From positions 1,528,001 through 1,592,000 of the forward strand of contig NZ_CP022112.1 of assembly GCF_000730165.1 (NCBI RefSeq): a DNA stretch of 64,000 nt, in the 5' to 3' direction. The position numbers were made by a program, and so were the translations under genes. Below, one piece after another: positions 1 to 63,091 of the stretch. Each line of letters opens with the position of its first letter. Position 1 is the stretch's first letter. The notes under the pieces are model-generated. The model was not told the DNA's origin and ran no database searches. It worked only from the letters and a program-made list of their open reading frames with translations. This DNA is from Nitrospirillum viridazoti CBAmc (lineage in GTDB: Bacteria; Pseudomonadota; Alphaproteobacteria; Azospirillales; Azospirillaceae).

Positions 1-373
1 TGCGCACGCCAGAGGCACGGGCGATATCCAGCAAATGCAGCGTCTGCACAACGCTGCCGGACAGATCTGCGATCGGATCCTTGTTGGAGCTTTCCGGCAA
101 ACTGCCACTGATGAGGTGGAAGATCACCTCATTGCCTTCCACCGCCCGGGCCACCGCGGCGTGGTCGGTGAAGTCCCCCGTCATCCAATCCCCCCCCCCC
201 AAGGCCCCGGGAAGTGGCTGGGAGCGGCCGAAAGCTTGGACCACAGCACCATTCGCCTGCAAGCGGCGGCAAAGGTTGGTGCCGATAAAGCCGCCCGCAC
301 CCAGAACCAGGCATCGGCGACCCTTCAGCGGGGACGCGCCGCCCACATCATCTCGACTGCCAACAGGCGTCAT
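1..373 (-). CDS. NAD-dependent epimerase/dehydratase family protein (3' end beyond the window)
   Basis: Reading the minus strand from the ATG at 373 gives an open frame to the window edge. Around residues 22-34 it has the Rossmann nucleotide-binding motif LVLGAGGFIGTNLCRRL, followed by a DFTD and an EVIFHLISGS stretch typical of extended SDR sugar-nucleotide epimerases. The fold predicts NAD(P)-dependent remodelling of a nucleotide sugar; the substrate cannot be told because the YxxxK active site and the C-terminal domain lie outside. The start codon overlaps the stop of the upstream glycosyltransferase as ATGA, so the two are probably translationally coupled. A run of 11 G (coding strand, 190-200) sits inside the frame at an A-L-G-G-G-D stretch, and the frame is intact as given. 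Confidence 0.85.
   Translation of the reverse strand, partial: MTPVGSRDDVGGASPLKGRRCLVLGAGGFIGTNLCRRLQANGAVVQAFGRSQPLPGALGGGDWMTGDFTDHAAVARAVEGNEVIFHLISGSLPESSNKDPIADLSGSVVQTLHLLDIARASGVR
190..200. repeat. Homopolymer tract of 11 C (poly-G on the coding strand) inside the epimerase gene
   Basis: Eleven consecutive C on the given strand lie in the 5' third of the epimerase frame. The tract is in frame as written; a change by one or two bases would truncate the protein. It is either a potential slippage (phase-variation) site or a place where the assembly may be wrong. Confidence 0.9.
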
Positions 374-1641
374 ATCAGGTAGCGCTCCATCTCGGTGACC
401 ATGCGCTCGAACGTGAAACCGCGGGCGAACGTCCGCGCCCGCGCCGACACACGGTGGCGCAGTTCAGGATCGCCCACCAGAGCCATGATCCCGGCCCCCA
501 TGTCCTGCGCGTCGCCCTTGCGGAAGAGTATGCCGCTCTCGCGATCGGTGACGATCTCGACATTGCCGCCCACGGCCGAGGCCACCGTGGGGATGCCACA
601 GGCCAAAGCATGGATTAGGGTGAGGGAAAACGGCTCGTACAGCGACGGGAAGAGATAGATGTCATGCTCGTTGAACAACCGGAACAGCGTGTCTTCCCGC
701 ACCGGTTCCTGGAACGTGATCGCGGGTGCGACGTCCAGATCCGCGATCAGGCTCTTCAGCCTTTCCGAATAGGCACGGTCCTGGCCGTCGCCCACAATGG
801 TCAGATGGAACTGCCGATCCGGTTCGGTCCGGCGCAGATGGGCCAGGGCTTCCAGCGCAGTATGCACACCCTTCAAGTCGACAAGCCGGCCCGCGAACAG
901 GAGGCGCACCGTGCCCGGGTCACAAAACTGGCGGCGATCACGGAAAGCCGAGGACGGCATGTCCGCGATGCGCACGCCATTGTGGATTACTTTGTGCGAA
1001 CGGAACGAGATGCCGGCGTCGGCATACAGGTCGCGCATAAACGCCGCACCGAAGATTGCGTCTTCCGCCAAGGGGAAGCGGGGCGTGACCACAGGGGCGG
1101 CCGGGGCGCGTATCCAGGACGGCAGCAGGCGGCGCCAGCCTGTCACGGCCGCGGGCTGAGCCGGCGGCATGAAGGGCTTATCCCCAAAAACATGCTCGGT
1201 GAAGAAACGGCCGATGTAATCGCCATCCAGGGCGGCGATAAGCCAGTTGTCCGTGAGCATGAGAACGACCCGGCATCCCACACCTTCCAACGCCCGCAGC
1301 AGCGACAGGTCGAAGAAGAACAGGTTCCAGGCGAAAATGACGTCGGGCTTTTCCGCTGCCACGGTGGCGTGCAGGATGGCGACGTTGGCCGCGTTGATGC
1401 GGGCGCGTTCCGCTTCGTCGGCGGAGAACGGGCTGTAGATGTCGTCGGCGTTGGCCAGCAGCGTCAGGCTGCGATGCACCGTTTGGCCGGCATAGTCCTG
1501 GACCTTGCCGCCATAAGTGCTGGTCAGGACAGCAACCTCGTGCTCCCGCTGGACGAAAGCGCCAGCAACATCGGCGCAGAGCCGTTCATACCCGCCGACA
1601 ACGTTGGGAGGATAGAGATTGCTCAGAAAAAGGATTTTCAT
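370..1641 (-). CDS. Glycosyltransferase family 4 (GT-B fold)
   Basis: The 423-residue protein starts MKILFLSNLYPPNVVGGYERL, the glycine-rich acceptor-side loop of GT4 enzymes. Its C-terminal half has RLLFAGRLVDLKGVHTALEAL and the sugar-nucleotide motif LYEPFSLTLIHALACGIPTVAS (E-x7-E type) near residues 330-350. It most likely transfers a sugar from a nucleotide donor to a growing surface glycan at the cytoplasmic face of the inner membrane; donor and acceptor are unknown. The start is fixed by an ATGA overlap with the GT2 gene upstream, and the stop overlaps the epimerase start in the same way, so the three form one coupled unit. Confidence 0.9.
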   Translation of the reverse strand: MKILFLSNLYPPNVVGGYERLCADVAGAFVQREHEVAVLTSTYGGKVQDYAGQTVHRSLTLLANADDIYSPFSADEAERARINAANVAILHATVAAEKPDVIFAWNLFFFDLSLLRALEGVGCRVVLMLTDNWLIAALDGDYIGRFFTEHVFGDKPFMPPAQPAAVTGWRRLLPSWIRAPAAPVVTPRFPLAEDAIFGAAFMRDLYADAGISFRSHKVIHNGVRIADMPSSAFRDRRQFCDPGTVRLLFAGRLVDLKGVHTALEALAHLRRTEPDRQFHLTIVGDGQDRAYSERLKSLIADLDVAPAITFQEPVREDTLFRLFNEHDIYLFPSLYEPFSLTLIHALACGIPTVASAVGGNVEIVTDRESGILFRKGDAQDMGAGIMALVGDPELRHRVSARARTFARGFTFERMVTEMERYLI

Positions 1642-2561
1642 GCGACGACACTATTCATGAACTGGCGGAAGGCGACGTCCGTGAAGAAAGGATGGTTCTC
1701 CAACGTCCGGCTGGGATGACGGTCGAAGTAATTGAGGAAAAGCAGCACCGGCCGGGTCAGGGTGTGGCGATCGAGCAGATCGAGCATGGGCAGGGTCCGC
1801 TGCCAATCCACGGCCGCCGCATCCGGCGCCCGCCACAGGCGGTGCAGGTAGTGCGCCACCACCGCCGCCCATTCCACCTTCACCTTCAAGTGGCCTTCGC
1901 TGATGGTATTGGTGTCATGTTGCCGATAGCTCAGCAAGGGGGCATCGACGCGATGGATGGTCCGGCCTGAGCCGACCACGCGTAAGAAGAAATCCAGGTC
2001 GTGGGCATAGCGCAACGCGCTGAAATACCCCAGTTCGTCGAACGCCCGCCGCCGAATGAGAAGGTTTGACGTCGTCATGAAGATGTTGCCGTTGACCAGG
2101 GTCAGCCCCAAGTCGCCGGAGGTGCGATGGAAGGCCACCGCCTCCTCGTACCAGGTGTTCGCCAGCGCTCCGCCCCGCCCGTCAATGAAATCCAGACCGG
2201 TCATCACCACATCCAACGCCGGGTCCGCCTGAAGGGGCGCTAGCATTCGCTGGAACCGATCCGGGTGATAGATATCGTCGGAGTTCAAGATGGCGATCAG
2301 GTCGCCCGTCGCCCGATGGATGCCGTCGTTGATGGCGGCGTGCGCGCCGCCATTCGGCTTGGACCAAAACACAATCCGCGCGTCACCGGCGGCGTAGTCG
2401 CGGGCCACCTGGGCCGACTGGTCACGTGAACCATCATCCACAATGACGATCTCGTGCACGGGAACGGTCTGCCCAAGAACGCCCTCCAACGCCGCCCCGA
2501 TGTAATGCTGATGATTATAGAGCGGGATTACGACGGATATGCGCGATTGATTAGAGTTCAT
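1638..2561 (-). CDS. Glycosyltransferase family 2 (GT-A fold)
   Basis: About 307 residues. The N-terminus ISVVIPLYNHQHYIGAALEG followed by IVIVDDGSRDQS is the classic GT2 donor-binding region, and ILNSDDIYHPDR supplies the DxD-like metal site near residue 95. A longer frame opens at a TTG at 2603 and another ATG lies at 2570. I prefer the ATG at 2561 because it directly precedes the family motif and has a GGA-containing ribosome site. Its stop overlaps the next GT4 start (ATGA). Predicted to add one sugar in the same surface-glycan pathway; the specificity cannot be read from the sequence. Confidence 0.88.
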   Translation of the reverse strand: MNSNQSRISVVIPLYNHQHYIGAALEGVLGQTVPVHEIVIVDDGSRDQSAQVARDYAAGDARIVFWSKPNGGAHAAINDGIHRATGDLIAILNSDDIYHPDRFQRMLAPLQADPALDVVMTGLDFIDGRGGALANTWYEEAVAFHRTSGDLGLTLVNGNIFMTTSNLLIRRRAFDELGYFSALRYAHDLDFFLRVVGSGRTIHRVDAPLLSYRQHDTNTISEGHLKVKVEWAAVVAHYLHRLWRAPDAAAVDWQRTLPMLDLLDRHTLTRPVLLFLNYFDRHPSRTLENHPFFTDVAFRQFMNSVVA

Positions 2562-2652
2562 GGTTTCCATCCAGACGCCGGGCGGCCCCCGCGCGAAGGG
2601 CAAGGCTACGGCACTACCCCATTACCGCCAGCATTGTCAAAGATCGCCTGCG

Positions 2653-5600
2653 TCACCTCGGGACCGGCAAGTTCAGGAAGCGTAGCATCTCCTTCAATTG
2701 CGCGGTAATCGCCGGGATGGAGAAGCGCTCGGTGGCAAATGCGATGCCGCCATCGGACAGGCGCTGCCACAGCTCCCGCTCTTGATAGAGGGCCGCGATG
2801 GCCGCCGCATAGTCGTCAGGCGTCTCGGCGGTCAGTATGTTCAAGCCCGTCTTCAACCCCATGCCCTCCACCGCGACTTTGGACGCGACGCACGGCACGC
2901 CATAGGACAAGCTGGTCACGACCTTTCCCTTGATGCCGGCACCGAAGCGAAGCGGCGCCACAGTGATTCGGCAATTCGCGAAGGTTTCCGTTAGGTCTGC
3001 GACATAGCCGACGACGACCACACCTTGGTCCGGGGCGTGCAGCGCCAACACCTCGGCCGTCGGGTTGCTGCCAACGATCCTCAAGATCACGTCAGGCAAC
3101 AAGTGCCGGACCTTGGGCCAAATCTCGGCCACGAAGGTCAGGATGGCATCAACGTTCGGCTGGTGGGCGAAGCCTCCGATGAACACGATGTCCCGCCGCG
3201 TCTCGAACGGCGCGGACCGGCCGGGAATGTCGCGAACGATGGGGATCAGCCGCTTGGGCGCCTGCGGCAGGATCTCATCCAGCAGGCGGTATTCCTGCTC
3301 GCTCAACACGATAGTGCAGTCCGCGCGGGACGCCACATCCAGTTCCACCGCGCGGGTATAATTCGCCTGCTCTAGCATCTGGGGCGAGCGCATCATGACC
3401 GCTTGCCGCTCCTCCCGTACGAAGTGCAGGTCAACGGTGTCAAAGACGATGCGAGCGTTGATCGCGTGACGCAGCAACGGGTCGATTAGGTGGCAGGCGA
3501 CCGTGACGCGATACAGCATCACCAGATCAAACTCGGCCCCGTGGGCTTCCACAAAGCCGGCGGCGCTATCGACATAGGGTGCGCAAACGCAGGTTACGCC
3601 CAACCGCCGTAAATCGTCGGTATAGCGGCTCGCATGTGCAAGGGAATGGGCCGGAACAAAGGTTACGTCGTAGCCCAGTTCCAGGAAAATGCGCATGAAC
3701 CAGAAGATGTCAGCAGACCCGGAGTCCTTGTCCACCTCAGGCGTCAGATGATCAATGAACAGGACTCGCGGCCGACGCATCGCCCGATAAGACAGCTGCC
3801 GATCCAAGACCAGACCGGTGCCGCCAAGCGCGCGCGCCCATTCCTGCCGGAACCGCCAACGGTCGTGGGACAGGGTCCAGGGCTCTGGCGCCCCCAGAGG
3901 CGGCGCCCCAACTACGGGCGCGAAGGGTTGGCACACGGTCGCGCGGTTAAGATCGCGCAATCGCATCGAGAAATCGGCCAGCGCATAACCCAAGCCCAGA
4001 TAGTCTTCCGACAGCCCTCCGACCTCCTGCCACAGCGACCGGGCGACGAACAGGGCGCCGGAACCAGCCCCATCGACATCCTGCACCGAAGCGACGGCGT
4101 AGTGGTCAGCAGGGAGGCCGGCCGCGTTGGGCGATATGGTGCCATCCGCATGGATGCATAGGCCTGCGGCGGCCACGCGACCATCCTCCGTCAGGTGGCA
4201 GGCGGTCACGAGGCCAGCCTGCGGAAAAAGCGCCTGAGCCTGCGTCAAGGCGTCCCGCCAGCCCGGCGCCAACTGGGTACCGGCTGTCAGCAACAAGAGT
4301 TGCGGGCTGCCTGACGTCAGAATGGAACGGTTGATCACTGCGGGTAAGGATTGCTCCCCGGTGTCGGCGACTTCAATGCCCGCCGAATCGCACTGCTGCT
4401 TCCACGCCGGATCTGCAGCCCATTCGGCCACGGCAACGACCTTGATTGACTCGTCACCCAGCGAAACCAGCGAAGCACGGGCGCCTTCGGGGTCGCCGCC
4501 TAAAAGCAGAACGGTAACCTCCGGATGGTCCGCAGGCGCGAAACGCGGCCAGGACGCGTTGGACACGAGGGAGGTGGCCGGCCCGTCCTCAATGACGGTC
4601 CCGTCAGCCGGCGCCGAACCAGCGTCCACGATCGGCAGCCCTTGCCGCCGGCGATCGCCGATCCATCGCACGAGGGGATTGTCGCCCTTCGCCACGTAGC
4701 CTGTCCTATGGAACCACGCATTGGGCTGACGGCCCTCCGCCGCCCCCCAGGCGACATAGTGCAGAACCGGCACTACCCCCGAGGCCGCCACGTCTGGATA
4801 TTGGGACAGATAGAAGTCGGTATCGAACACGCCGCTCGCGTTGATAAATCTGACCAGCCGGCGTTCCTTCAAGCGGGCCTGCAACTGGCCGGTGACCAGC
4901 CAGCCCATGAACAGCCTCAACCGGACAGAAGCACCGGACCGCAGGACCCGGCGGCTGACTTTCCCCGCCAGGCGCAAAGGCGCCGTGAACCGCCAAGACG
5001 CCGACCCGTATAGGGCCGCGAGAACTGCGTCCCGGGCAACAAGCTGGGCGCCAATGTCGGCGGCTTCCTGCGCCAGCCGGCTCATTTCATGGTCCCGGTT
5101 CAGCAACTCACCGTCACGGGCATTAATGGTCGCCAAATGGCGGTTGATTTCACGGCTCATAAACACTTGGCGCTTATCCCGTTCAAAGGCATTGGCCTTC
5201 AAGCGGGCGAGCTCAACATCCCGGCTGGAAAGATCATCGTTCAGCCCCGCGACTTCCGCCTTACGCAGCGCGAGCTCACCGTTGATGCGGCTGATCTCAC
5301 CATCGCGATGGGAAATCTCGCCATTCAGCCGCGCGATCTCCGCCTCACGCAACGCGAACTCGCCATTGACGCGGCTCATCTCGCCGTTCAGCCGCGCGAT
5401 CTCCGCCTCACGCAGCGCGAACTCGCCATTGATGCGGCTGATCTCGCCGTTCAGGCGTTCGACCTCCGCCTCGCGCAGAGCGAATTCGCCATTGATGCGG
5501 CTGATCTCGCCGTTCAGGCGTTCGACCTCCGCCTCACGCAGAGCGAATTCGCCATTGACGCGGCTGATCTCGCCGTTCAGGCGTTCGACCTCCGCCTCGC

Positions 5601-6576
5601 GCAGAGCGAATTCGCCATTGACGCGGCTGATCTCGCCGTTCAGGCGTTCGACCTCCGCCTCGCGCAGAGCGAATTCGCCATTGACGCGGCTGATCTCGCC
5701 GTTCAGGCGTTCGACCTCCGCCTCGCGCAGAGCGAATTCGCCATTGACGCGCGAAATCTCATCATACAGCTCCCCCATCTTACCTTGTGCGGATGCCAGC
5801 GCTGTCTCCAGCGCCTTTTCGTGCACCGGCGACTGCATCACACTGTTCAAGACGGTGGGCAGCACGTGGCGCGTGGCTATGGCGATATAATAAGGCGGGC
5901 TGGGGACGCCGGACGACTTTTTGAAATGGGTGCCGTCCTCCGTTTCGTATCCGTCGATTGCAGGCTCCGCGACGCCGTCCGCCCCCAAAATAACCGAGCC
6001 CGTCAAGGCGCGCTGCTCGAAGATACGAACATTCGGGAAGTGAGTAGCCAACAGGCCTTCAAATTCCTGCCGGTTCAGTTCACGACAATGAAAGGGATTA
6101 TGGTAGTCTGCCGCCTCAGTATAAACGTCACGGTTCGGAGAAGAGATAATCAGCAATCCATCATGCCGCAGAATACGGGCGACATTCTCAATAAATCGCT
6201 CTTGTTCTTGAAAATGCTCAAGCGTCTCGAAGCTGACAACAACATCAATGGACGCATCGGGCAGATCCAGATGCGCAGCATCGCCGTGGCGATAACGCAC
6301 GTTGTCCGAACCATAGTGGGCGTTGGCGAAATCCACCGCCGGCTGATCGATATCGATACCAGTTACGGATCGCGCGACCTGGCCCAGCAGAAAGCTGCCG
6401 TAGCCCTCGCCACTCGCTACGTCGATTACGTCCTTGCCCCGGCACAGGGATGCCGCGAATAAATAGCGGTGGTAATGCTCATGCTGTATTCCGCCGAGCA
6501 CACCTGAAACATAACGCTCTCCCGTGAATTCCAACTGATTATCAGGACGGGGAAAATAAAAAGAAACGTCAGTCAC
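2653..6576 (-). CDS. Multidomain methyltransferase / coiled-coil repeat / glycosyltransferase protein
   Basis: 1,307 residues, with a GTG start. Domains in order: class I SAM methyltransferase at about 15-200 (motif I VIDVASGEGYG, then VTGIDID and VVVSFETLEHF); a coiled coil at about 272-500 built largely of 21-residue repeats; a linker with the GSASWRFTAPLR signature at about 520; an FDTDFYLSQYPDVA module at about 582 that often accompanies surface glycosyltransferases; a degenerate GT2-like segment at about 685-900; and a GT4 domain at about 935-1300 (PRVLFIDHLTPE, FGAGIKGKVV, SYGVPCVAS). The layout resembles enzymes that build and cap O-antigen or other surface glycans, where a coiled coil acts as a molecular ruler. 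That role here is inference. It lies upstream of the GT2-GT4-epimerase set on the same strand. Confidence 0.85.
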   Translation of the reverse strand: MTDVSFYFPRPDNQLEFTGERYVSGVLGGIQHEHYHRYLFAASLCRGKDVIDVASGEGYGSFLLGQVARSVTGIDIDQPAVDFANAHYGSDNVRYRHGDAAHLDLPDASIDVVVSFETLEHFQEQERFIENVARILRHDGLLIISSPNRDVYTEAADYHNPFHCRELNRQEFEGLLATHFPNVRIFEQRALTGSVILGADGVAEPAIDGYETEDGTHFKKSSGVPSPPYYIAIATRHVLPTVLNSVMQSPVHEKALETALASAQGKMGELYDEISRVNGEFALREAEVERLNGEISRVNGEFALREAEVERLNGEISRVNGEFALREAEVERLNGEISRVNGEFALREAEVERLNGEISRINGEFALREAEVERLNGEISRINGEFALREAEIARLNGEMSRVNGEFALREAEIARLNGEISHRDGEISRINGELALRKAEVAGLNDDLSSRDVELARLKANAFERDKRQVFMSREINRHLATINARDGELLNRDHEMSRLAQEAADIGAQLVARDAVLAALYGSASWRFTAPLRLAGKVSRRVLRSGASVRLRLFMGWLVTGQLQARLKERRLVRFINASGVFDTDFYLSQYPDVAASGVVPVLHYVAWGAAEGRQPNAWFHRTGYVAKGDNPLVRWIGDRRRQGLPIVDAGSAPADGTVIEDGPATSLVSNASWPRFAPADHPEVTVLLLGGDPEGARASLVSLGDESIKVVAVAEWAADPAWKQQCDSAGIEVADTGEQSLPAVINRSILTSGSPQLLLLTAGTQLAPGWRDALTQAQALFPQAGLVTACHLTEDGRVAAAGLCIHADGTISPNAAGLPADHYAVASVQDVDGAGSGALFVARSLWQEVGGLSEDYLGLGYALADFSMRLRDLNRATVCQPFAPVVGAPPLGAPEPWTLSHDRWRFRQEWARALGGTGLVLDRQLSYRAMRRPRVLFIDHLTPEVDKDSGSADIFWFMRIFLELGYDVTFVPAHSLAHASRYTDDLRRLGVTCVCAPYVDSAAGFVEAHGAEFDLVMLYRVTVACHLIDPLLRHAINARIVFDTVDLHFVREERQAVMMRSPQMLEQANYTRAVELDVASRADCTIVLSEQEYRLLDEILPQAPKRLIPIVRDIPGRSAPFETRRDIVFIGGFAHQPNVDAILTFVAEIWPKVRHLLPDVILRIVGSNPTAEVLALHAPDQGVVVVGYVADLTETFANCRITVAPLRFGAGIKGKVVTSLSYGVPCVASKVAVEGMGLKTGLNILTAETPDDYAAAIAALYQERELWQRLSDGGIAFATERFSIPAITAQLKEMLRFLNLPVPR
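5323..5763 (-). repeat. Seven tandem 63-bp repeats encoding a coiled coil
   Basis: Seven consecutive units of 63 bp (residues about 272-418 of the fusion protein) each encode a 21-residue, three-heptad segment of the form [D/G]E[I/M]SR[V/I]NGEFALREAE followed by VERLN or IARLN. Units 1-5 are nearly identical at the DNA level and units 6-7 diverge slightly. A 7-residue half unit (GEISHRD) and a weaker eighth unit follow. Near-identity at the DNA level points to recent expansion, so copy number probably differs between strains. Confidence 0.95.
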
Positions 6577-6875
6577 CGCTTACACCCGGAATAACATAGA
6601 CAACCATTCCCGGGCGATCCAGGAATGGTCGCTGACAGATAATATACTTTTGGCGTCAGTGCCAGTTTTTAAACACGCACCTCTCTTGCCCACGAGAGGC
6701 AGCCGCCACCGGCACCAACTCATGGCGCGGCATCCTTTCAGGAAAGCCATACGGATAATTGGAAAGCATCCGGCAGGCGCGCCGCCACCAAAAAGGCATA
6801 GCCCCATGGTCTATGTATAAACGCCCATCCGGAGTGTTATTATATAGATAAAATTGCAAATATGCGCAGGAAATC
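6577..6875. promoter_or_regulatory. Divergent intergenic region between the fusion protein and the sulfotransferase
   Basis: About 300 bp without a supported gene, A+T-richer than most of the window. It must hold the start signals for both divergent genes. A short hairpin (CCTCTC/GAGAGG, 6680-6699) and a TATATAG-type element just before the plus-strand gene are visible. Two overlapping minus-strand frames here have no recognisable protein character. Confidence 0.4.
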
Positions 6876-7652
6876 ATGGGCAAGACCCTTATTCACTACC
6901 ATTTGTTCAAGAATGCGGGAAGTAGCATTGATAAGATACTGCGGAAGTATTTTGAAGATCAGTGGGCTTCATTCGACGGGAATGATCCTTATGGCTTAAT
7001 AGATGACCAGCAGATCCGAGAGTATTTTGAATGTCATGAATATGTAATTGCTCTGTCAAGCCATTTGGCCAGGCCGCCCATTCCCTATGCCGACACCATT
7101 CCTATTGTTTTCTTGCGACATCCAGTTGATCGAGCCTTGTCCGTCTACCGCTTCTGGCAGGCGAATCCGCATCTACCAGGACATCAGTTCGTGGTGAATC
7201 GCACATTCAGGGACTTCATCGATTGGTCAATAAAATCCAATGATGTCGGCTCTATCATCAAGAACTACCATGTCATCCACCTGACTGGAGCTGCTTTCCG
7301 GTATCGGATGGATGGTTATTACGCGCCAAATACTCAGGATTTGAATGATCTGAAGGCATTACTGGAGAATTGGTCCACATTCGGCATCGTACGCCGCTTC
7401 GACGAATCCATGGCTCTTTTCAATGCCGCCTATGGTAGTCTTTTCCCGGGTCTATTCGAAGGCTCCTGCCACGAGAATATAACTAACGCCGCCTTTATCT
7501 CTGACGAGATGGAGGTCGAACGGGCTCGAGACCTCGCGGGTGCCGACATCATCGCAGACTTCATTGACAGCAACTATTTGGACATGGAGCTATACAGCTG
7601 GGCGCAGCAGATATTTGACAGAAAACTCCACGTCGCCGTGGCGGCCGCATAG
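6876..7652 (+). CDS. Sulfotransferase-family protein
   Basis: 258 residues starting MGKTLIHYHLFKNAGSSID. The HLFKNAGSS loop matches the 5'-phosphosulfate binding P-loop of cytosolic and carbohydrate sulfotransferases, and VFLRHPVDRALSVYRFW near residue 88 matches the 3'-phosphate (PAPS) motif (RxP...S..Y). Such enzymes move sulfate from PAPS to a hydroxyl of a glycan or lipid; in this setting a surface-polysaccharide acceptor is likely. The start has an AGGA ribosome site 6-7 bases upstream. Base composition is visibly more A+T-rich than its neighbours, which suggests acquisition by transfer. No PAPS synthesis genes are in view. Confidence 0.75.
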   Translation: MGKTLIHYHLFKNAGSSIDKILRKYFEDQWASFDGNDPYGLIDDQQIREYFECHEYVIALSSHLARPPIPYADTIPIVFLRHPVDRALSVYRFWQANPHLPGHQFVVNRTFRDFIDWSIKSNDVGSIIKNYHVIHLTGAAFRYRMDGYYAPNTQDLNDLKALLENWSTFGIVRRFDESMALFNAAYGSLFPGLFEGSCHENITNAAFISDEMEVERARDLAGADIIADFIDSNYLDMELYSWAQQIFDRKLHVAVAAA

Positions 7653-7722
7653 TCCATCTACTGTATCCACTATAATGTAGACCGCGCGCCTGGAATTCCG
7701 AGTATTCGGAGGCGCCGATCCC

Positions 7723-8610
7723 TCAACTCCCCCCCAGCATCTTCACAATGGCCGAGAAGTCCAAATGCCCGTTGCCGGCAGCGGCGAACAAGGCGTACAG
7801 CGCCGCCGCGCTGGCGCCTAAGGGCGTGGCGGCGCCGCTGGAGGCGGCGGCGGCCTGGGCCAGCTTCAGGTCCTTCAGCATCATGTCGACGGCGAAGCCG
7901 GGGGCGTAGTCGCGGTTGGCGGGGGAGGTGGGTACGGGGCCGGGCACGGGGCAGTAGGTGGTCAAGGACCAGCACTGGCCGGAAGAGGTGGAGCTGACGT
8001 CGAACAGTTTTTGCCGGTCCAGGCCCAGCTTGTCGGCCAGGGCGAAGGCCTCCGACACGGCGATCATGGAAATGCCCAGGATCATGTTGTTGCAGATCTT
8101 GGCCGCCTGGCCGGTGCCGGGCCCGCCGGTGTGCACCACCGTCTTGCCCATCTGCGAGAGATAGGGCCGCGCCCGCTCCATCGCCTCGTCACTGCCGCCC
8201 ACCATGAAGGTCAGGGTGCCCGCCGCAGCCCCGCCGGTGCCACCGGAGACGGGGGCATCCACCATGGCGAAGCCGCGGGCGGCGGCGGCGGCTGCCACGG
8301 CGCGGGCGCTGTCGACATCGATGGTGGAGCTGTCGATCAGCAGGGCGGCCGGGGCCGCGGTGTCGAACACGTTACCGGCGTCCTCGTACACGCCGCGCAC
8401 ATGGCGGCCGGCGGGCAGCATGGTCACCACCACCTCGGCACCCGAGGCGGCGTCGCCGACGGACCCGGCGATGACACCGCCGGCCTCGGCCAAGGCGGCC
8501 AGCGACTGGGGCGCCAGGTCGAAGCCCACGACGGTATGTCCGGCCTTCAATAGGTTGCGGGCCATGGGCAGGCCCATGTTGCCCAGGCCGATAAATGCGA
8601 TGCGGCTCAT
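7723..8610 (-). CDS. mmsB: 3-hydroxyisobutyrate dehydrogenase
   Basis: About 295 residues. The N-terminus MSRIAFIGLGNMGLPMARNL is the NAD-binding fingerprint of beta-hydroxyacid dehydrogenases, DAPVSGGTGGAAAGTLTFMVGG is the substrate-binding signature, and GTGQAAKICNNM carries the catalytic lysine. It oxidises 3-hydroxyisobutyrate to methylmalonate semialdehyde with NAD+ in valine breakdown. An ATG 30 bases further upstream is in frame, but the ATG at 8610 has a strong GAGAGGAA ribosome site. It follows the acyl-CoA dehydrogenase by 26 bp as the last gene of the operon. Related tartronate semialdehyde reductases share the fold; the neighbours favour the valine role. Confidence 0.88.
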   Translation of the reverse strand: MSRIAFIGLGNMGLPMARNLLKAGHTVVGFDLAPQSLAALAEAGGVIAGSVGDAASGAEVVVTMLPAGRHVRGVYEDAGNVFDTAAPAALLIDSSTIDVDSARAVAAAAAARGFAMVDAPVSGGTGGAAAGTLTFMVGGSDEAMERARPYLSQMGKTVVHTGGPGTGQAAKICNNMILGISMIAVSEAFALADKLGLDRQKLFDVSSTSSGQCWSLTTYCPVPGPVPTSPANRDYAPGFAVDMMLKDLKLAQAAAASSGAATPLGASAAALYALFAAAGNGHLDFSAIVKMLGGS

Positions 8611-8636
8611 GATCGTTCCTCTCCCGTAATTATTCT

Positions 8637-9779
8637 TCACCCCTTCGCCAACAGGCGGCGGGCGATGATCAGACGCATGATCTCATTGGTGCCTTCCAGG
8701 ATCTGGTGCACCCGGACGTCGCGGACGTAGCGTTCCAGCGGGTATTCCCGGATGTAGCCGTAGCCGCCGTGCAGTTGCAGCGCCTCGTTGCAAACCTGGA
8801 ATCCCACGTCGGTGGCGAAGCGTTTGGCCATGGCGCACCAGGTGGTGGCCTCCGGATCGCCGGCGTCCAGGGCGGCCGCCGCGCGGTGCACCATCAGGCG
8901 CGCGGCCTCCAGCTCCGTCGCCATGTCGGCCAGGCGGAACTGCAGGGCCTGGAAATCCGCCAGCTTGCGGCCGAAGGCTTCGCGTTCACCCATGTAGCGG
9001 GTGGCGAGGTCCAGGCAGGCCCGCGCCCCGCCCAGGGAGCAGGAGGCGATGTTGATGCGGCCGCCGTCCAGGCCCTTCATGGCGATGCCGAAGCCCGCAC
9101 CCTCCTCCCCCAGCCGGTTTTCCACTGGCACGCGGCACTCCTCGAAAATCACCTGGGCGGTGGGCTGGCAGTTCCAGCCCATCTTCTTCTCCTTCTTGCC
9201 GAAGCTGAGGCCCGGCGTGCCCTTCTCCACCACCAGGGCAGAGATGCCCTTGGGACCGGGACCGCCGGTGCGCACCATGACGACATAAAGGTCGGACACG
9301 CCGGCGCCGGAGATGAAGGCCTTGGACCCGTTCAGCACATAGTGGTCGCCGTCGCGCACCGCCTTGGTGCGCAAGGCGGCCGCGTCGGAGCCGGAGCCGG
9401 GTTCGGTCAGGCAATAGCTGGCCACCCGGTCCATCGTCATGAGGCCAGGCAGATACCTGCCTCTGATCGTATCGCTACCGAAACGATCGATCATCCACGC
9501 CGCCATGTTGTGGATGGACAGGAAGGCCGAGGTGGCGACGCAGCCGGCCGACAGCTCCTCGAATAACAGGGCCGCGTCCAGGCGGGTGAGGCCGGAGCCG
9601 CCATGTTCCTCCCCGCAATAAAGCCCACCCATGCCCAGGGCCGCCGCGGCACGCAGGGCGTCGAGCGGGAAGATCTCCTTCTCATCCCACTCGGCGGCAT
9701 GCGGCGCCAGATGCTCGGCGGCGAAGTCCCGCGCCATGTCGCGGAACGCCGCCTGCTCCTCGGTCAGGTTGAAGTCCAT
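8637..9779 (-). CDS. Acyl-CoA dehydrogenase, probably isobutyryl-CoA dehydrogenase
   Basis: 380 residues, the normal length for the family. It opens with [20 protein letters not shown]. It has the FAD/substrate signature [15 protein letters not shown] and the C-terminal [34 protein letters not shown], which carries the catalytic glutamate region of short/branched-chain acyl-CoA dehydrogenases. It dehydrogenates an acyl-CoA and passes electrons to ETF; the adjacent 3-hydroxyisobutyrate dehydrogenase makes isobutyryl-CoA the best guess. Strong ribosome site (GGGAGGATAG) before the ATG. Lies between the aldehyde dehydrogenase and mmsB on one strand. Confidence 0.88.
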
Positions 9780-9821
9780 GGGCCCTATCCTCCCTGTTCT
9801 TGGTTTTAAGGCGGCCCGGCC

Positions 9822-11327
9822 TCAGGCCATGTTCAGCATGATGGTCTTCTTGTGGGTGAAGTGTTCCAGCATGGCCTCCAGGGTCGCCTCCTTGCCCAGG
9901 CCGGAGGATTTCACGCCGCCGTAGGACAGGTTGGGCTGCACCACCAGGTTCTGGTTCACCTGCACCAGGCCGGCCTGCAGGCGCTGGGTGGCGTCCAGCG
10001 CCGTCTTCAGGTCGCGGGTCCAGATGGTGGCGGCCAGGCCGAAGTCGCTGTCGTTGGCCTGGGCGATCACGTCCTCGTACTCCGTGAAGCGGATGACGCA
10101 GGTGACGGGCCCGAAGATCTCCTCCCGCGCCAAGCGGCTGTCGTTGGTCATGCCGGTGAAGATGACGGGGCGGACGTACAGGCCCTTGGCCAGGGCGGCG
10201 TCCGTGGGGAGGGCGGAGCATTCGTGCGCGGCGGCGCCGGGGGTGCGCTTGCCCTCGGCGATGTAGCCCTGGACGCGGTCGAACTGCTGCGGCGAGACGA
10301 TGGTGCCGATGTCCGTCCTTTCATCCAGCGGGTCGCCCATGACCATGGCGTCCACCTTGGCCTTCAGCGCCGTGACGAAGGCATCGTGCAGGCTGTCGTG
10401 CACGAAGATGCGGCTGGCGGCGGTGCAGCTCTGCCCCTGGCGGGTGAAGCGCATGCCGGTGACGGCGCCGGCCACTGCCGCCGCCAAGTCGGCGTCGCCC
10501 ATGACGATCATGGGGCTCTTGCCGCCCAGCTCCAGCGTCACGGGGATCAGCTTGTCCGCCGCCGTCCGGCTGACGATGCGGCCGGTTTCGACCGAGCCGG
10601 TGAAGGTGACCTTGGCCACCCTGGGATGGGCCACCAGCGGCGCGCCGCATTCGGGCCCAAAACCGGACAGGATGTTCAGCACGCCGGCCGGCAGCACCTG
10701 GGCCATGATCTGGCAGGCGCGCAACACGGCGAACGGCGCCTCTTCCGCCGACTTCACCACCACGGTGTTACCCGCCACCAGCGCCGGCGCGATCTTCAGC
10801 GCCATCAGCATCATGGGCACGTTCCACGGGATGATGGCGCCCACCACGCCCAGTGGCTCACGCACCGTCAAGGTCAGCATCTTGGGATTGAAGGGCACCG
10901 TCTCGCCCTTCAGCTCACCGCCCAGACCGCCGAAGAAGGTGAAGGCGTCGGCCAGCACGCCGGCCTCGACCCGGCTTTCCGTGCGCAGGGCCTTGCCCGT
11001 CTCCAGCGCCACCAGGCGGGCCAGTTCTTCGGTGTGGGCGGTCAGCAGGCGGCCGCATTCCGCCACCAGCCGGCCCCGCTCGCGCGCCGGCAGGGCCTTC
11101 CACGTAACGCCGGCCTCGACAGCGGCGGCCACGGCGGCATCCACGTCGGCGGCCTCGCCATAGCCGGCGCGGCCCATGACCTCACCCTTGGCCGGGTTGA
11201 CCACGTCGAAGGTCTTGCCCGAGGCCGAGGCCACCAGGCGTCCGCCGATCAGGTGCTTGCCTGACAGCTCGGCCGCCAGGGCATAGGGATCCAGCTGCGG
11301 GGCCAGCGGGGCGGCGGTGGTGCTCAT
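9822..11327 (-). CDS. NAD(P)-dependent aldehyde dehydrogenase
   Basis: 501 residues of the ALDH superfamily. IIPWNVPMMLMALKIAPALVAGN is the cofactor region, VTLELGGKSPMIVM holds the general-base glutamate, and GQSCTAASR holds the catalytic cysteine near residue 305. It oxidises an aldehyde to an acid. In a valine operon one would expect the CoA-acylating methylmalonate-semialdehyde dehydrogenase (MmsA), but this protein looks like the ordinary hydrolytic betaine-aldehyde-type group, so the substrate is uncertain. An AGGAG site 10 bases before the ATG supports the start. First gene of the three-gene operon. Confidence 0.87.
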   Translation of the reverse strand: MSTTAAPLAPQLDPYALAAELSGKHLIGGRLVASASGKTFDVVNPAKGEVMGRAGYGEAADVDAAVAAAVEAGVTWKALPARERGRLVAECGRLLTAHTEELARLVALETGKALRTESRVEAGVLADAFTFFGGLGGELKGETVPFNPKMLTLTVREPLGVVGAIIPWNVPMMLMALKIAPALVAGNTVVVKSAEEAPFAVLRACQIMAQVLPAGVLNILSGFGPECGAPLVAHPRVAKVTFTGSVETGRIVSRTAADKLIPVTLELGGKSPMIVMGDADLAAAVAGAVTGMRFTRQGQSCTAASRIFVHDSLHDAFVTALKAKVDAMVMGDPLDERTDIGTIVSPQQFDRVQGYIAEGKRTPGAAAHECSALPTDAALAKGLYVRPVIFTGMTNDSRLAREEIFGPVTCVIRFTEYEDVIAQANDSDFGLAATIWTRDLKTALDATQRLQAGLVQVNQNLVVQPNLSYGGVKSSGLGKEATLEAMLEHFTHKKTIMLNMA

Positions 11328-11526
11328 GGGGGTTCACTCCTGTTTATTCTGTGTGCGCTCCCGGCTGGGCCTCAGGACGCGCGTTCCGCTGGAGACATGG
11401 CATGGCCCCGCGCGGATCGCCATTATCCGGGCGGGGAGCTTGGCGACATAGGTAGCAAGTACGCGAAACGGCTGTGCAAGAATGCGCAGACGCAACACCC
11501 CGGCCCTGGGAAAACGGCACATGCAC

Positions 11527-12045
11527 TCAGTCTATCACCAGGCTGACGCCACCGACGCTGGGGTCGGAGCCGGGTTTGGGTGGCCGCCGGGAGATCAAGG
11601 TGACGGTATCGGCCAGGGGTGATCCGCCCACCGCGGTCGCCAGCGCGGGCAGGCGGCCGGTAATGTCCAGCACCACGTCGCGGTGGCCGCCGTCATCCTC
11701 CGCCGGCTGGCTGGCCATGAAGGTGTAAAGGCCCAGGCGGCGGGGCTCATCCGCCGCATCCACCGGTGCGGTTTCCAACGTGCCGGCGAACACCATCACC
11801 GGCGTGCCCGTCGGCGCGCGCCGGCGCACGTCATGGATGACCAGCTGCACCCTGTGCCCCTGGGCCGCGGCCGCCACAGCATCGGCCCACCGCGCCGGGC
11901 CGCTTAAAGGCAGCGATTGGGGGGCCGCGGCCAGGACCCAAGCCTGGCCGACCGTCCGGCGCCCCTCGCCCTTCTCCACCAGCCAGGTGCCGAGGACCAA
12001 GGCGATACCCAGCATTATCAATCCCGCGACCGGCACCCGCGCCAT
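11527..12045 (-). CDS. Hypothetical membrane-anchored protein
   Basis: About 172 residues from the ATG at 12045, which has a GAGGAA ribosome site; the frame stays open upstream to 12222 with another ATG at 12069. The start is MARVPVAGLIMLGIALVLGTWLVEKGEG, one hydrophobic segment followed by an arginine-rich turn, so it is probably anchored with its C-terminal domain outside the cytoplasm. The rest (HRVQLVIHDVRRRAPTGTPV and a beta-rich tail ending GGVSLVID) matches no family I recognise. It is in the same direction as the valine operon, about 200 bp upstream. Confidence 0.6.
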   Translation of the reverse strand: MARVPVAGLIMLGIALVLGTWLVEKGEGRRTVGQAWVLAAAPQSLPLSGPARWADAVAAAAQGHRVQLVIHDVRRRAPTGTPVMVFAGTLETAPVDAADEPRRLGLYTFMASQPAEDDGGHRDVVLDITGRLPALATAVGGSPLADTVTLISRRPPKPGSDPSVGGVSLVID

Positions 12046-62116: not shown

Positions 62117-63091
62117 TCAGCCCTTGCTGGTGAACCAGCTGACGTTCACACCCGTAGCGCCCTGAACGGTCACGGTGCTGCCGTCCGGCAGGGTCAGAAT
62201 GGTGTTGCCGTTGCTGACCGTGGCGTTGCTGATCAGCGAAGCGAGGTCCAGCGACTTGCCACCATAATTGGTGCTGGTGAAGCCCAGCACATCCTTCGTC
62301 GCGTCGAAGCCGGCGACCGTGTCGTTGCCGTCGCCCGGGCTGAAGATGAAGGTGTCCTTGCCGGCGCCACCGACCAGGCTGTCGTTGCCCGACTCGCCAA
62401 TGATGTAGGCTCCGCCGCTACCGGCAACGATGGTGTCGTTACCGGCGCCACCACCCAGCGTATCAAAACCCGAGCCGCCGACCAGGGAGTCATTGCCGGC
62501 GCCACCGTTGATGATGTCGTTGCCGACGCTGGAGCTGATGACGTCGTTGGTGGAGGAACCGATGATGCTGTCGTTGCCGGTGCCGGCGATGACGGTGTTC
62601 ACGCCACCCGAGCCAGTGCCCGAGCCACCGCTCAACACCAGGAAGTTGTTGCCCGAGTCACCGACGACGACCTTGCCGCCACTGCTGGCGTCCAGGAACA
62701 GGGCGGTGGTGTTACCGGCGGCCGTGCCGGTCAGCACGACGGACGTGAGGGAGGGGTCAGCAATGACGTTGGTGACGACGCTGCTGCCGGCGGAGGTGCC
62801 CGCAGCCGTCTGGGACAGGTCAACAGCCGCCAGCGTCGGGTTGCCGCTGGAGCCGGAAACGACGACGCTGCTGACCGAGCTGACGGTCGTGGTGCCGAAC
62901 GTGATGGTCGAGGACAGGGTCTGGGTGGGGGTGTTGGACGACGTCGGCGCCACGGAAGCAATGCTCAGCGTGCCGCTGCTGTTCGCCAGGATACCGGACA
63001 GGGCCGTCGTGATCTTGTCCTGATCCGCCTGCGAGACGGTTGGTGCCGTCGAGAAGCTAACCGTACCGTTACCACCGGAAAGAGTCGGCAT
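62117..63091 (-). CDS. RTX-type calcium-binding secreted protein
   Basis: 324 residues, rich in Ser, Thr, Gly and Asn with almost no Lys or Arg in the first half. Residues about 165-250 contain glycine/Asp nonapeptide-like repeats (NDIINGGAGNDSLVGGSGFDTLGGGAGNDTIVAG; GGAGKDTFIFSPGDGNDTVAGFD). The C-terminus LPDGSTVTVQGATGVNVSWFTSKG is the kind of tail read by type I secretion. There is no Sec signal. It probably binds Ca2+ and is placed outside the cell, perhaps as a surface layer or matrix protein. No type I exporter is in the window. It heads the glycosyltransferase run. Confidence 0.87.
   Translation of the reverse strand: MPTLSGGNGTVSFSTAPTVSQADQDKITTALSGILANSSGTLSIASVAPTSSNTPTQTLSSTITFGTTTVSSVSSVVVSGSSGNPTLAAVDLSQTAAGTSAGSSVVTNVIADPSLTSVVLTGTAAGNTTALFLDASSGGKVVVGDSGNNFLVLSGGSGTGSGGVNTVIAGTGNDSIIGSSTNDVISSSVGNDIINGGAGNDSLVGGSGFDTLGGGAGNDTIVAGSGGAYIIGESGNDSLVGGAGKDTFIFSPGDGNDTVAGFDATKDVLGFTSTNYGGKSLDLASLISNATVSNGNTILTLPDGSTVTVQGATGVNVSWFTSKG
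62340..62600 (-). repeat. RTX glycine-rich repeat block
   Basis: Several GGxGxDxxx-like units in the RTX protein, including GGAGNDSLV, GGSGFDTLG, GGAGNDTIV and GGAGKDTFI. They form a Ca2+-binding parallel beta-roll in known RTX proteins. Confidence 0.85.

Follow-up and report, generated by a model that had tools for sequence, protein, structure and literature searches.

A likely surface-glycan terminator of Nitrospirillum viridazoti with a methyltransferase, a rod built of 63-bp repeats, and glycosyltransferase modules on one chain

Coiled-coil rulers are an accepted means of setting the length of bacterial glycans, and a coiled-coil protein with a terminator at its far end has been described as a marker of the ABC-transporter assembly strategy, which is widespread in bacteria (PMC11231755). 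According to the same account, ruler function is established for Escherichia coli O9 and Klebsiella O12, with one-chain forms in O12 and, nearly, in O7, while the modal chain length is reported to change upon insertions and truncations in WbdD (PMC5082667). Here, we describe a gene of the plant-associated soil bacterium Nitrospirillum viridazoti CBAmc that lies in a 64,000-nucleotide stretch of contig NZ_CP022112.1 (the window) and encodes, on a single chain, a methyltransferase (MT), a predicted heptad rod containing a 63-bp tandem-repeat array, and two glycosyltransferase (GT) modules, one of them degenerate. We consider it probable that this is the chain-terminating and length-setting protein of a surface glycan exported by an ABC transporter.

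The architecture is already known in kind. By its description, ORF6 of Klebsiella pneumoniae O7 has an N-terminal MT, a central coiled coil, and C-terminal GTs on one chain, in a locus with Wzm/Wzt, but a kinase and a carbohydrate-binding-module-like domain stand ahead of its coil, and both of its GT2 modules are active (PMC11231755). In the Nitrospirillum protein, we see no kinase, the GT2 module is degenerate, the second GT is of the GT4 family, and the rod is made of DNA repeats. WbbB of Klebsiella O12 likewise joins terminator, ruler, and polymerase modules in a single polypeptide, although its terminator is described as a Kdo transferase rather than an MT (PMC11231755). The one-chain terminator-ruler-polymerase layout, pointed out in the original prediction, therefore has precedents in both proteins (PMC11231755). 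WbdD of E. coli O9/O9a is similar in that a capping MT sits on a coiled-coil ruler and the cognate Wzt has a C-terminal end-binding domain (PMC5082667, PMC11231755); unlike our protein, it is reported to have a kinase and to recruit WbdA (PMC11231755). WsaE of Geobacillus stearothermophilus combines an MT with two GT modules on one chain in a system with Wzm/Wzt export and a 2-O-methyl cap, and a coiled coil goes unmentioned in the description consulted (PMC2943079). Finally, the MT of E. coli O101/O162 has an N-terminal methyltransferase and a coiled coil for which its authors suggest a ruler role, with no GT modules in the description on which we base this comparison (PMC13168486). The new elements are a rod assembled from repeats, the recurrence of such rods among relatives, and a relic GT2. 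In the titles and abstract openings of the literature searched, in which most subscription papers were out of reach, we found no report of DNA repeats in coiled-coil rulers, and the ruler papers cited above, as far as consulted, do not address the evolution of the ruler's own length.

The gene and its parts are as follows (positions in the window).

2653..6576, minus strand: whole gene, MT-heptad rod-degenerate GT2-GT4, 1307 amino acids (aa), GTG start, from the open reading frame (ORF) and Pfam
6145..6423, minus strand: S-adenosylmethionine (SAM) methyltransferase core, aa 52-144, Methyltransf_11 at E 5e-22, putative chain terminator
4981..5826, minus strand: predicted proline-free heptad rod, aa 251-532 (282-aa run), from hydrophobic periodicity
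5326..5766, minus strand: array of seven in-frame 63-bp (21-aa) units, the first four being u1 5704-5766, u2 5641-5703, u3 5578-5640, and u4 5515-5577
5326..5514, minus strand: remaining units of the array by exact unit alignment, u5 5452-5514, u6 5389-5451, and u7 5326-5388
4927..4998, minus strand: basic amphipathic segment at the rod base, aa 527-550, moment up to 0.71, charge +5, candidate membrane contact
3910..4446, minus strand: degenerate GT2 module, aa 711-889, with TAG in place of NND and the ED motif lost
2782..3195, minus strand: GT4 C-terminal lobe, aa 1128-1265, PF13692 at E 1e-20, conserved lysines kept

The ORF stands as originally called, from its GTG start through 1307 aa, with 0 internal stops in the translation. 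So does the SAM methyltransferase, which is intact and keeps the columns that are invariant among 25 aligned MT modules; a kinase domain was not found among the matches listed for the protein (25 of 28 Pfam rows). The putative terminator thus precedes the predicted rod and would occupy the distal end of an extended coil. Tandem Repeats Finder (TRF) reports the array at 5315-5751 with a period of 63, 6.9 copies, and a 96% match. The original prediction had placed seven 21-residue units at 5323-5763; the number and size of the units are right, and the exact position is 3 bases away. It had also called the units near-identical, which holds for u2 to u5, which lie 0 to 2 bases apart from one another (u2 and u3 show 0 differences, and u4 and u5 are each 1 base away from them), and does not hold for the outer units: u1 is 8 bases away from u2, with every change confined to the first five codons of u1, and u2 is separated from u6 by 8 and from u7 by 9 of the 63 bases. 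The identity of u2 and u3 in DNA gives this divergence the look of recent duplication within an older array. With the MT modules of two congeners at 59 to 60% identity to that of the window protein, the array very probably took its present form after these species had separated.

Could the copy number be an artefact of assembly? Short reads can miscount arrays of identical 63-bp units such as u2 and u3. The genome (7.38 Mb), however, is in 4 contigs and 100% complete, with the window inside a 1.6-Mb contig, comparable arrays occur in unrelated genomes, and the outer units have diverged, so that a multi-unit array is real whatever its exact count. We regard this explanation as very improbable. 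The genome collections searched yielded no second strain of the species, and the array differences that we know of are differences between species. A search of plasmids with window positions 1-12000 gave no match over the gene among the matches listed (20 of 67 records).

The coiled coil proposed in the original prediction is supported by a heptad signal and by the lack of proline over aa 251-532. Within the array (aa 271-417), hydrophobic periodicity peaks at 3.5 residues (5.1 versus 1.1 at the 99th percentile of 2000 shuffles), and over aa 252-515, it peaks at the same period (6.6 versus a 99% shuffle limit of 1.1). The rise of a coiled coil is 1.485 angstrom per residue, at which the computed helix spans are about 218 angstrom for the array, about 390 angstrom for aa 252-515, and 31 angstrom for one unit. 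The rod ends in an SWR motif followed by the basic amphipathic stretch, the moment of which (up to 0.71 over aa 527-550, with a net charge of +5) exceeds the 99th percentile over the window protein (0.61); WbdD is described as having an amphipathic helix that associates with the membrane (PMC11231755). The linker domain farther on (about aa 575-640) matches six stretches of a single protein in a locus from a Melainabacteria metagenome-assembled genome (L112; related loci carry L numbers here).

The setting of the gene is also informative. About 13 kb from it, outside the window but in the same locus, lie genes for Wzm and for a Wzt of 461 aa that carries a Wzt_C domain (E 1.7e-35). This Wzt is the sole Wzt_C match in the genome and shows 36% identity to the O9 Wzt of E. 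coli HS over 397 aa. The interval between exporter and gene holds an epimerase-type ORF, a nucleotidyltransferase-HAD fusion, a GHMP kinase, a GT2, a 627-aa ORF with no Pfam match, a SIS isomerase, a further ORF that looks epimerase-like by eye, and the two separate GT genes listed below. Judged from their domains, the nucleotidyltransferase, HAD, GHMP kinase, and SIS proteins would fit a GDP-heptose route. Because such a locus is also the setting of the coiled-coil terminator-rulers WbdD, WbbB, and O7 ORF6, a methyl-cap terminator and ruler is the best reading of the protein.

In such a mechanism, the N-terminal MT would cap the non-reducing end of the growing chain, perhaps one with heptose or mannose, and the heptad rod would keep the MT tens of nanometres from the base. 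At the base, the basic amphipathic segment, the vestigial GT2, and the GT4 would gather the polymerising enzymes; these would comprise the GT4 module and probably also the GT2 and GT4 proteins encoded next to the gene. Once long enough to reach the MT, a chain would be capped, and the Wzt_C domain would recognise the capped end for export. The rod itself has probably grown by tandem duplication of the 63-bp unit, which preserves both reading frame and heptad register; with every unit added or removed, the cap would therefore shift by about 31 angstrom. We thus consider ruler function likely, and tuning of glycan length by copy number, possibly changing within the species, plausible.

The C-terminal end calls for more caution. 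The GT4 claimed in the original prediction is present (PF13692), but the second Glu of what we take to be its EX7E motif is Thr. Among 21 aligned rows, this position is Thr, Ser, or Met in 10 (the window protein included), Glu in 8 (L107 among them), Gln in L066, and Asp in L048; the tallied classes sum to 20 of 21 rows, and no row has a gap. As to the predicted GT2-like region, homology is borne out by a match to the intact GT2 module of L046 (E 4e-7), whereas the catalytic motifs NND and ED are lost and no GT2 family appears among the matches listed (25 of 28 Pfam rows). We therefore rejected a fully active GT2 in this protein, and the complete polymerase that the original prediction placed at the other end of the same chain is doubtful: the two catalytically complete GT modules that accompany the coil or MT in WbbB, O7 ORF6, and WsaE do not have a counterpart here. 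Two further genes on the same strand bear on this point.

1638..2603, minus strand: separate GT2 glycosyltransferase, next gene, same direction, PF00535 at E 3e-32, candidate polymerase partner
370..1641, minus strand: separate GT4 glycosyltransferase, overlapping the GT2 gene, PF00534 at E 1e-33, candidate polymerase partner

These separate downstream proteins may supply polymerisation. One could still suppose that polymerase and terminator share one chain here, as in WbbB or O7 ORF6, with GT2 and GT4 both polymerising and the rod setting the distance to the cap. The domain order MT-rod-GT-GT agrees with this, as does an alignment of the GT2 in 21 members, of which 16 keep NND or NSD together with ED or EE. 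Against it, ED is lost and NND changed in the window protein (TAG) and in three Burkholderiaceae proteins, L052 (SDR), L062 (SDL), and L058 (SDD, with one aspartate kept), and one of the 21, L051, has no GT2 module at all. A Pfam scan of six relatives at E 1e-5 gave the same picture, with a GT2 match in L045, L046, L120, and L083 and none in L051 or, as in the window protein, L052. We find this variant improbable for the present protein; the degenerate GT2 suggests that some one-chain systems have fallen back to scaffold plus terminator.

To return to the terminator and ruler, its relatives provide a comparison. Whole-protein searches of assembled genome contigs confirmed no relative, and alignment of the MT module was used instead; it confirmed at least 517 relatives, of which the best 80 of 517 were kept, a sample biased to the closest. 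With the window protein, this gives 81 proteins, 60 of them at least 450 aa long. At E 1e-25, the MT module was found in 3 of 82 genomes of the taxonomic family, the window's own included, and class-wide searches of 385 genomes, in which at most 6 or 7 candidates were scored per genome, returned the window's genome alone. Strong arrays (period of at least 18, at least 2.5 copies, and at least 80% match) occur in 11 of the 60 longer proteins (10 of 59 without the window protein), and the main array of each follows the MT, within aa 255-583. By the same criteria, just 2 of 725 flanking frames (250 aa or longer) from the 80 related loci carry an array (957 kb of flanks against 199 kb of family sequence), so the array of the window protein is above chance. 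Among coil-like frames, the contrast is 11 of 60 family proteins (41 of which count as coil-like) against 0 of 42 flanking frames (Fisher p 0.0024). Eight of the 11 periods are divisible by 21 bp (binomial P 2e-5).

The original prediction had asked for 63-bp units in related genomes. Tandem-repeat rods are indeed present in relatives, but the units differ between species in length and, by eye, in sequence. Sapientia aquatica has units of 21 aa like the window protein, though of another sequence, and the units measure 31 aa (Pseudoroseomonas coralli), 42 aa (Bradyrhizobium barranii), 18 aa (Pollutimonas), 36 aa (Azospirillum sp. B4), and 14 aa (Pseudomonas sp. SJZ079 and others) elsewhere. Four relatives share MT family, GT4, and a tandem-array rod with the window protein and differ from it in unit sequence, namely the proteins of Nitrospirillum iridis (L045; 96 bp, 2.4 copies), Azospirillum sp. 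B4 (L046; 108 bp), S. aquatica (L120; 63 bp), and P. coralli (L051; 93 bp); compared with the degenerate GT2 of the window protein, that of the first three is intact and that of the fourth is absent. A common origin of some arrays is conceivable, since L085, L108, and L120 have a short RDGQ- or RDEQ-type stretch in common. It is a tentative proposal, for which we claim limited confidence, that glycan-terminator rulers evolve, and perhaps vary within a strain, by in-frame gain and loss of repeats that keep the heptad register, as a recombination-driven length dial that arose many times with different units. The rods of distant bacteria, with tandem units of 42 to 168 bp, would then form a natural allelic series next to WbdD, which lacks such an array. 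If copy number changes glycan length, these genes would allow the ruler model to be tested quantitatively and would provide a genetic means of varying surface length rapidly.

Several other proteins drew attention in their own right. L085 (1481 aa, Methylococcales) has a 42-bp, 23.4-copy array and, after the main coil, a second array at aa 717-798 (36 bp, 6.8 copies, 96%). In two Aminobacter strains (plasmid loci L037 and L128), this MT module stands at the front of a protein whose annotation is glycoside hydrolase family 99-like, with genes of 4443 and 4446 bp. L125 is a conjugative E. coli plasmid from river water (pKTa005_1, NZ_CP147085.1, 54203-71147) with ABC-transporter and sugar genes; beside the transporter genes lies a gene annotated as glycosyltransferase (1787 aa) with a 42-bp, 13.8-copy array, which DNA searches found in 1 of 5426 E. 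coli genomes.

The length of the rod across relatives also bears on a rival account. The rod could be a generic spacer for oligomerisation or tethering, with an MT that decorates within the chain or acts on a lipid-linked intermediate, a length that has no effect on the glycan, and repeats that drift nearly neutrally in a permissive coil. The distance from MT end to GT2 start (rod plus linker) is indeed loose, 149 to 692 aa in 35 proteins, and the MT-rod-GT2-GT4 layout occurs in N. iridis and Azospirillum sp. B4, genomes without a Wzt_C match, with an even longer rod plus linker (692 and 618 aa, respectively). On the other hand, the window's own locus does contain the Wzt_C exporter, and drift alone leaves unexplained why 0 of 42 other coil-like frames carry arrays, small as this control is. 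On balance, a mere spacer seems to us unlikely, though it deserves to be taken seriously. With arrays defined more loosely (at least 2 copies), rod plus linker is longer in the 10 proteins with arrays than in the 25 without (Mann-Whitney p 0.027).

A number of further observations weigh against a terminator and ruler or against its growth by heptad-register duplication. The original ruler interpretation gains from an MT at the far end of a heptad rod, the Wzm/Wzt(Wzt_C) locus, and repeats that differ between species, and it loses the complete same-chain polymerase; with a GT2 devoid of its motifs and a GT4 without the second Glu, polymerisation by the window protein is uncertain. Its MT is not close to that of WbdD (a 44-aa match at E 0.002), and membership in the WbdD group was rejected on this ground and for want of a kinase among the Pfam matches listed (25 of 28 rows). 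Wzt_C is absent from the draft genomes of the two ortholog-bearing congeners (G001, Azospirillum sp. B4, and G006, N. iridis), which keep the ortholog and the neighbouring catabolic genes, annotated in plasmid records as mmsB, isobutyryl-CoA dehydrogenase, and aldehyde dehydrogenase, and have other sugar genes by eye. Exporter neighbours were counted where the flanks exceeded 8 kb before the gene and 5.5 kb after it, a condition that removed 22 of 80 related loci. Wzm-like neighbours are present in 39 of 58 loci and Wzt_C-like ones in 25 of 58 (14 of 32 among those with GT4). This leaves 33 of 58 without Wzt_C in the fetched flanks, a span too short to reach even the Wzt of the window's own locus. 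As to the repeats, coiled coils themselves favour degenerate arrays with heptad periods, and among arrays of at least 92% match, just 3 of 6 periods are multiples of 21 bp (P 0.04); the unit of L051 has a proline every 31 residues, which is expected to kink the rod. Heptad quantisation of rod length, measurable in 33 of 81 proteins, is also weak: length differences lie no more than one residue from a multiple of 7 in 18 of 19 pairs with at least 70% MT identity, but these pairs share members, the by-clade P is 0.02, and the effect is gone at 50% identity or more (90 of 221).

The E. coli O9 WbdD gene served as a repeat-free control. In it (L126), TRF finds just a 15-bp repeat of 2.2 copies and no strong array. 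It matches 263 of 5426 genomes, 210 with at least 80% coverage and 53 with less. Among the matches listed (40 of 263), 32 are full length, all of 2127 bp at 90 to 100% identity, and 8 are short and partial. This ruler thus keeps its length in the 32 full-length matches listed.

Elsewhere in the window, a divergent gene marks the edge of the locus.

6876..7652, plus strand: sulfotransferase-like gene, PF03567 at E 0.011, below its cut-off

Two long open antisense frames, 4841-5890(+) and 5089-6462(+), were rejected as genes and are probably mirror frames of the GC-rich repeat. At 62117-63091(-), a 324-aa ORF has glycine-aspartate nonapeptide-like repeats, which we presume to resemble RTX calcium-binding repeats, and contains a 27-bp array at 62489-62592 with 3.9 copies.

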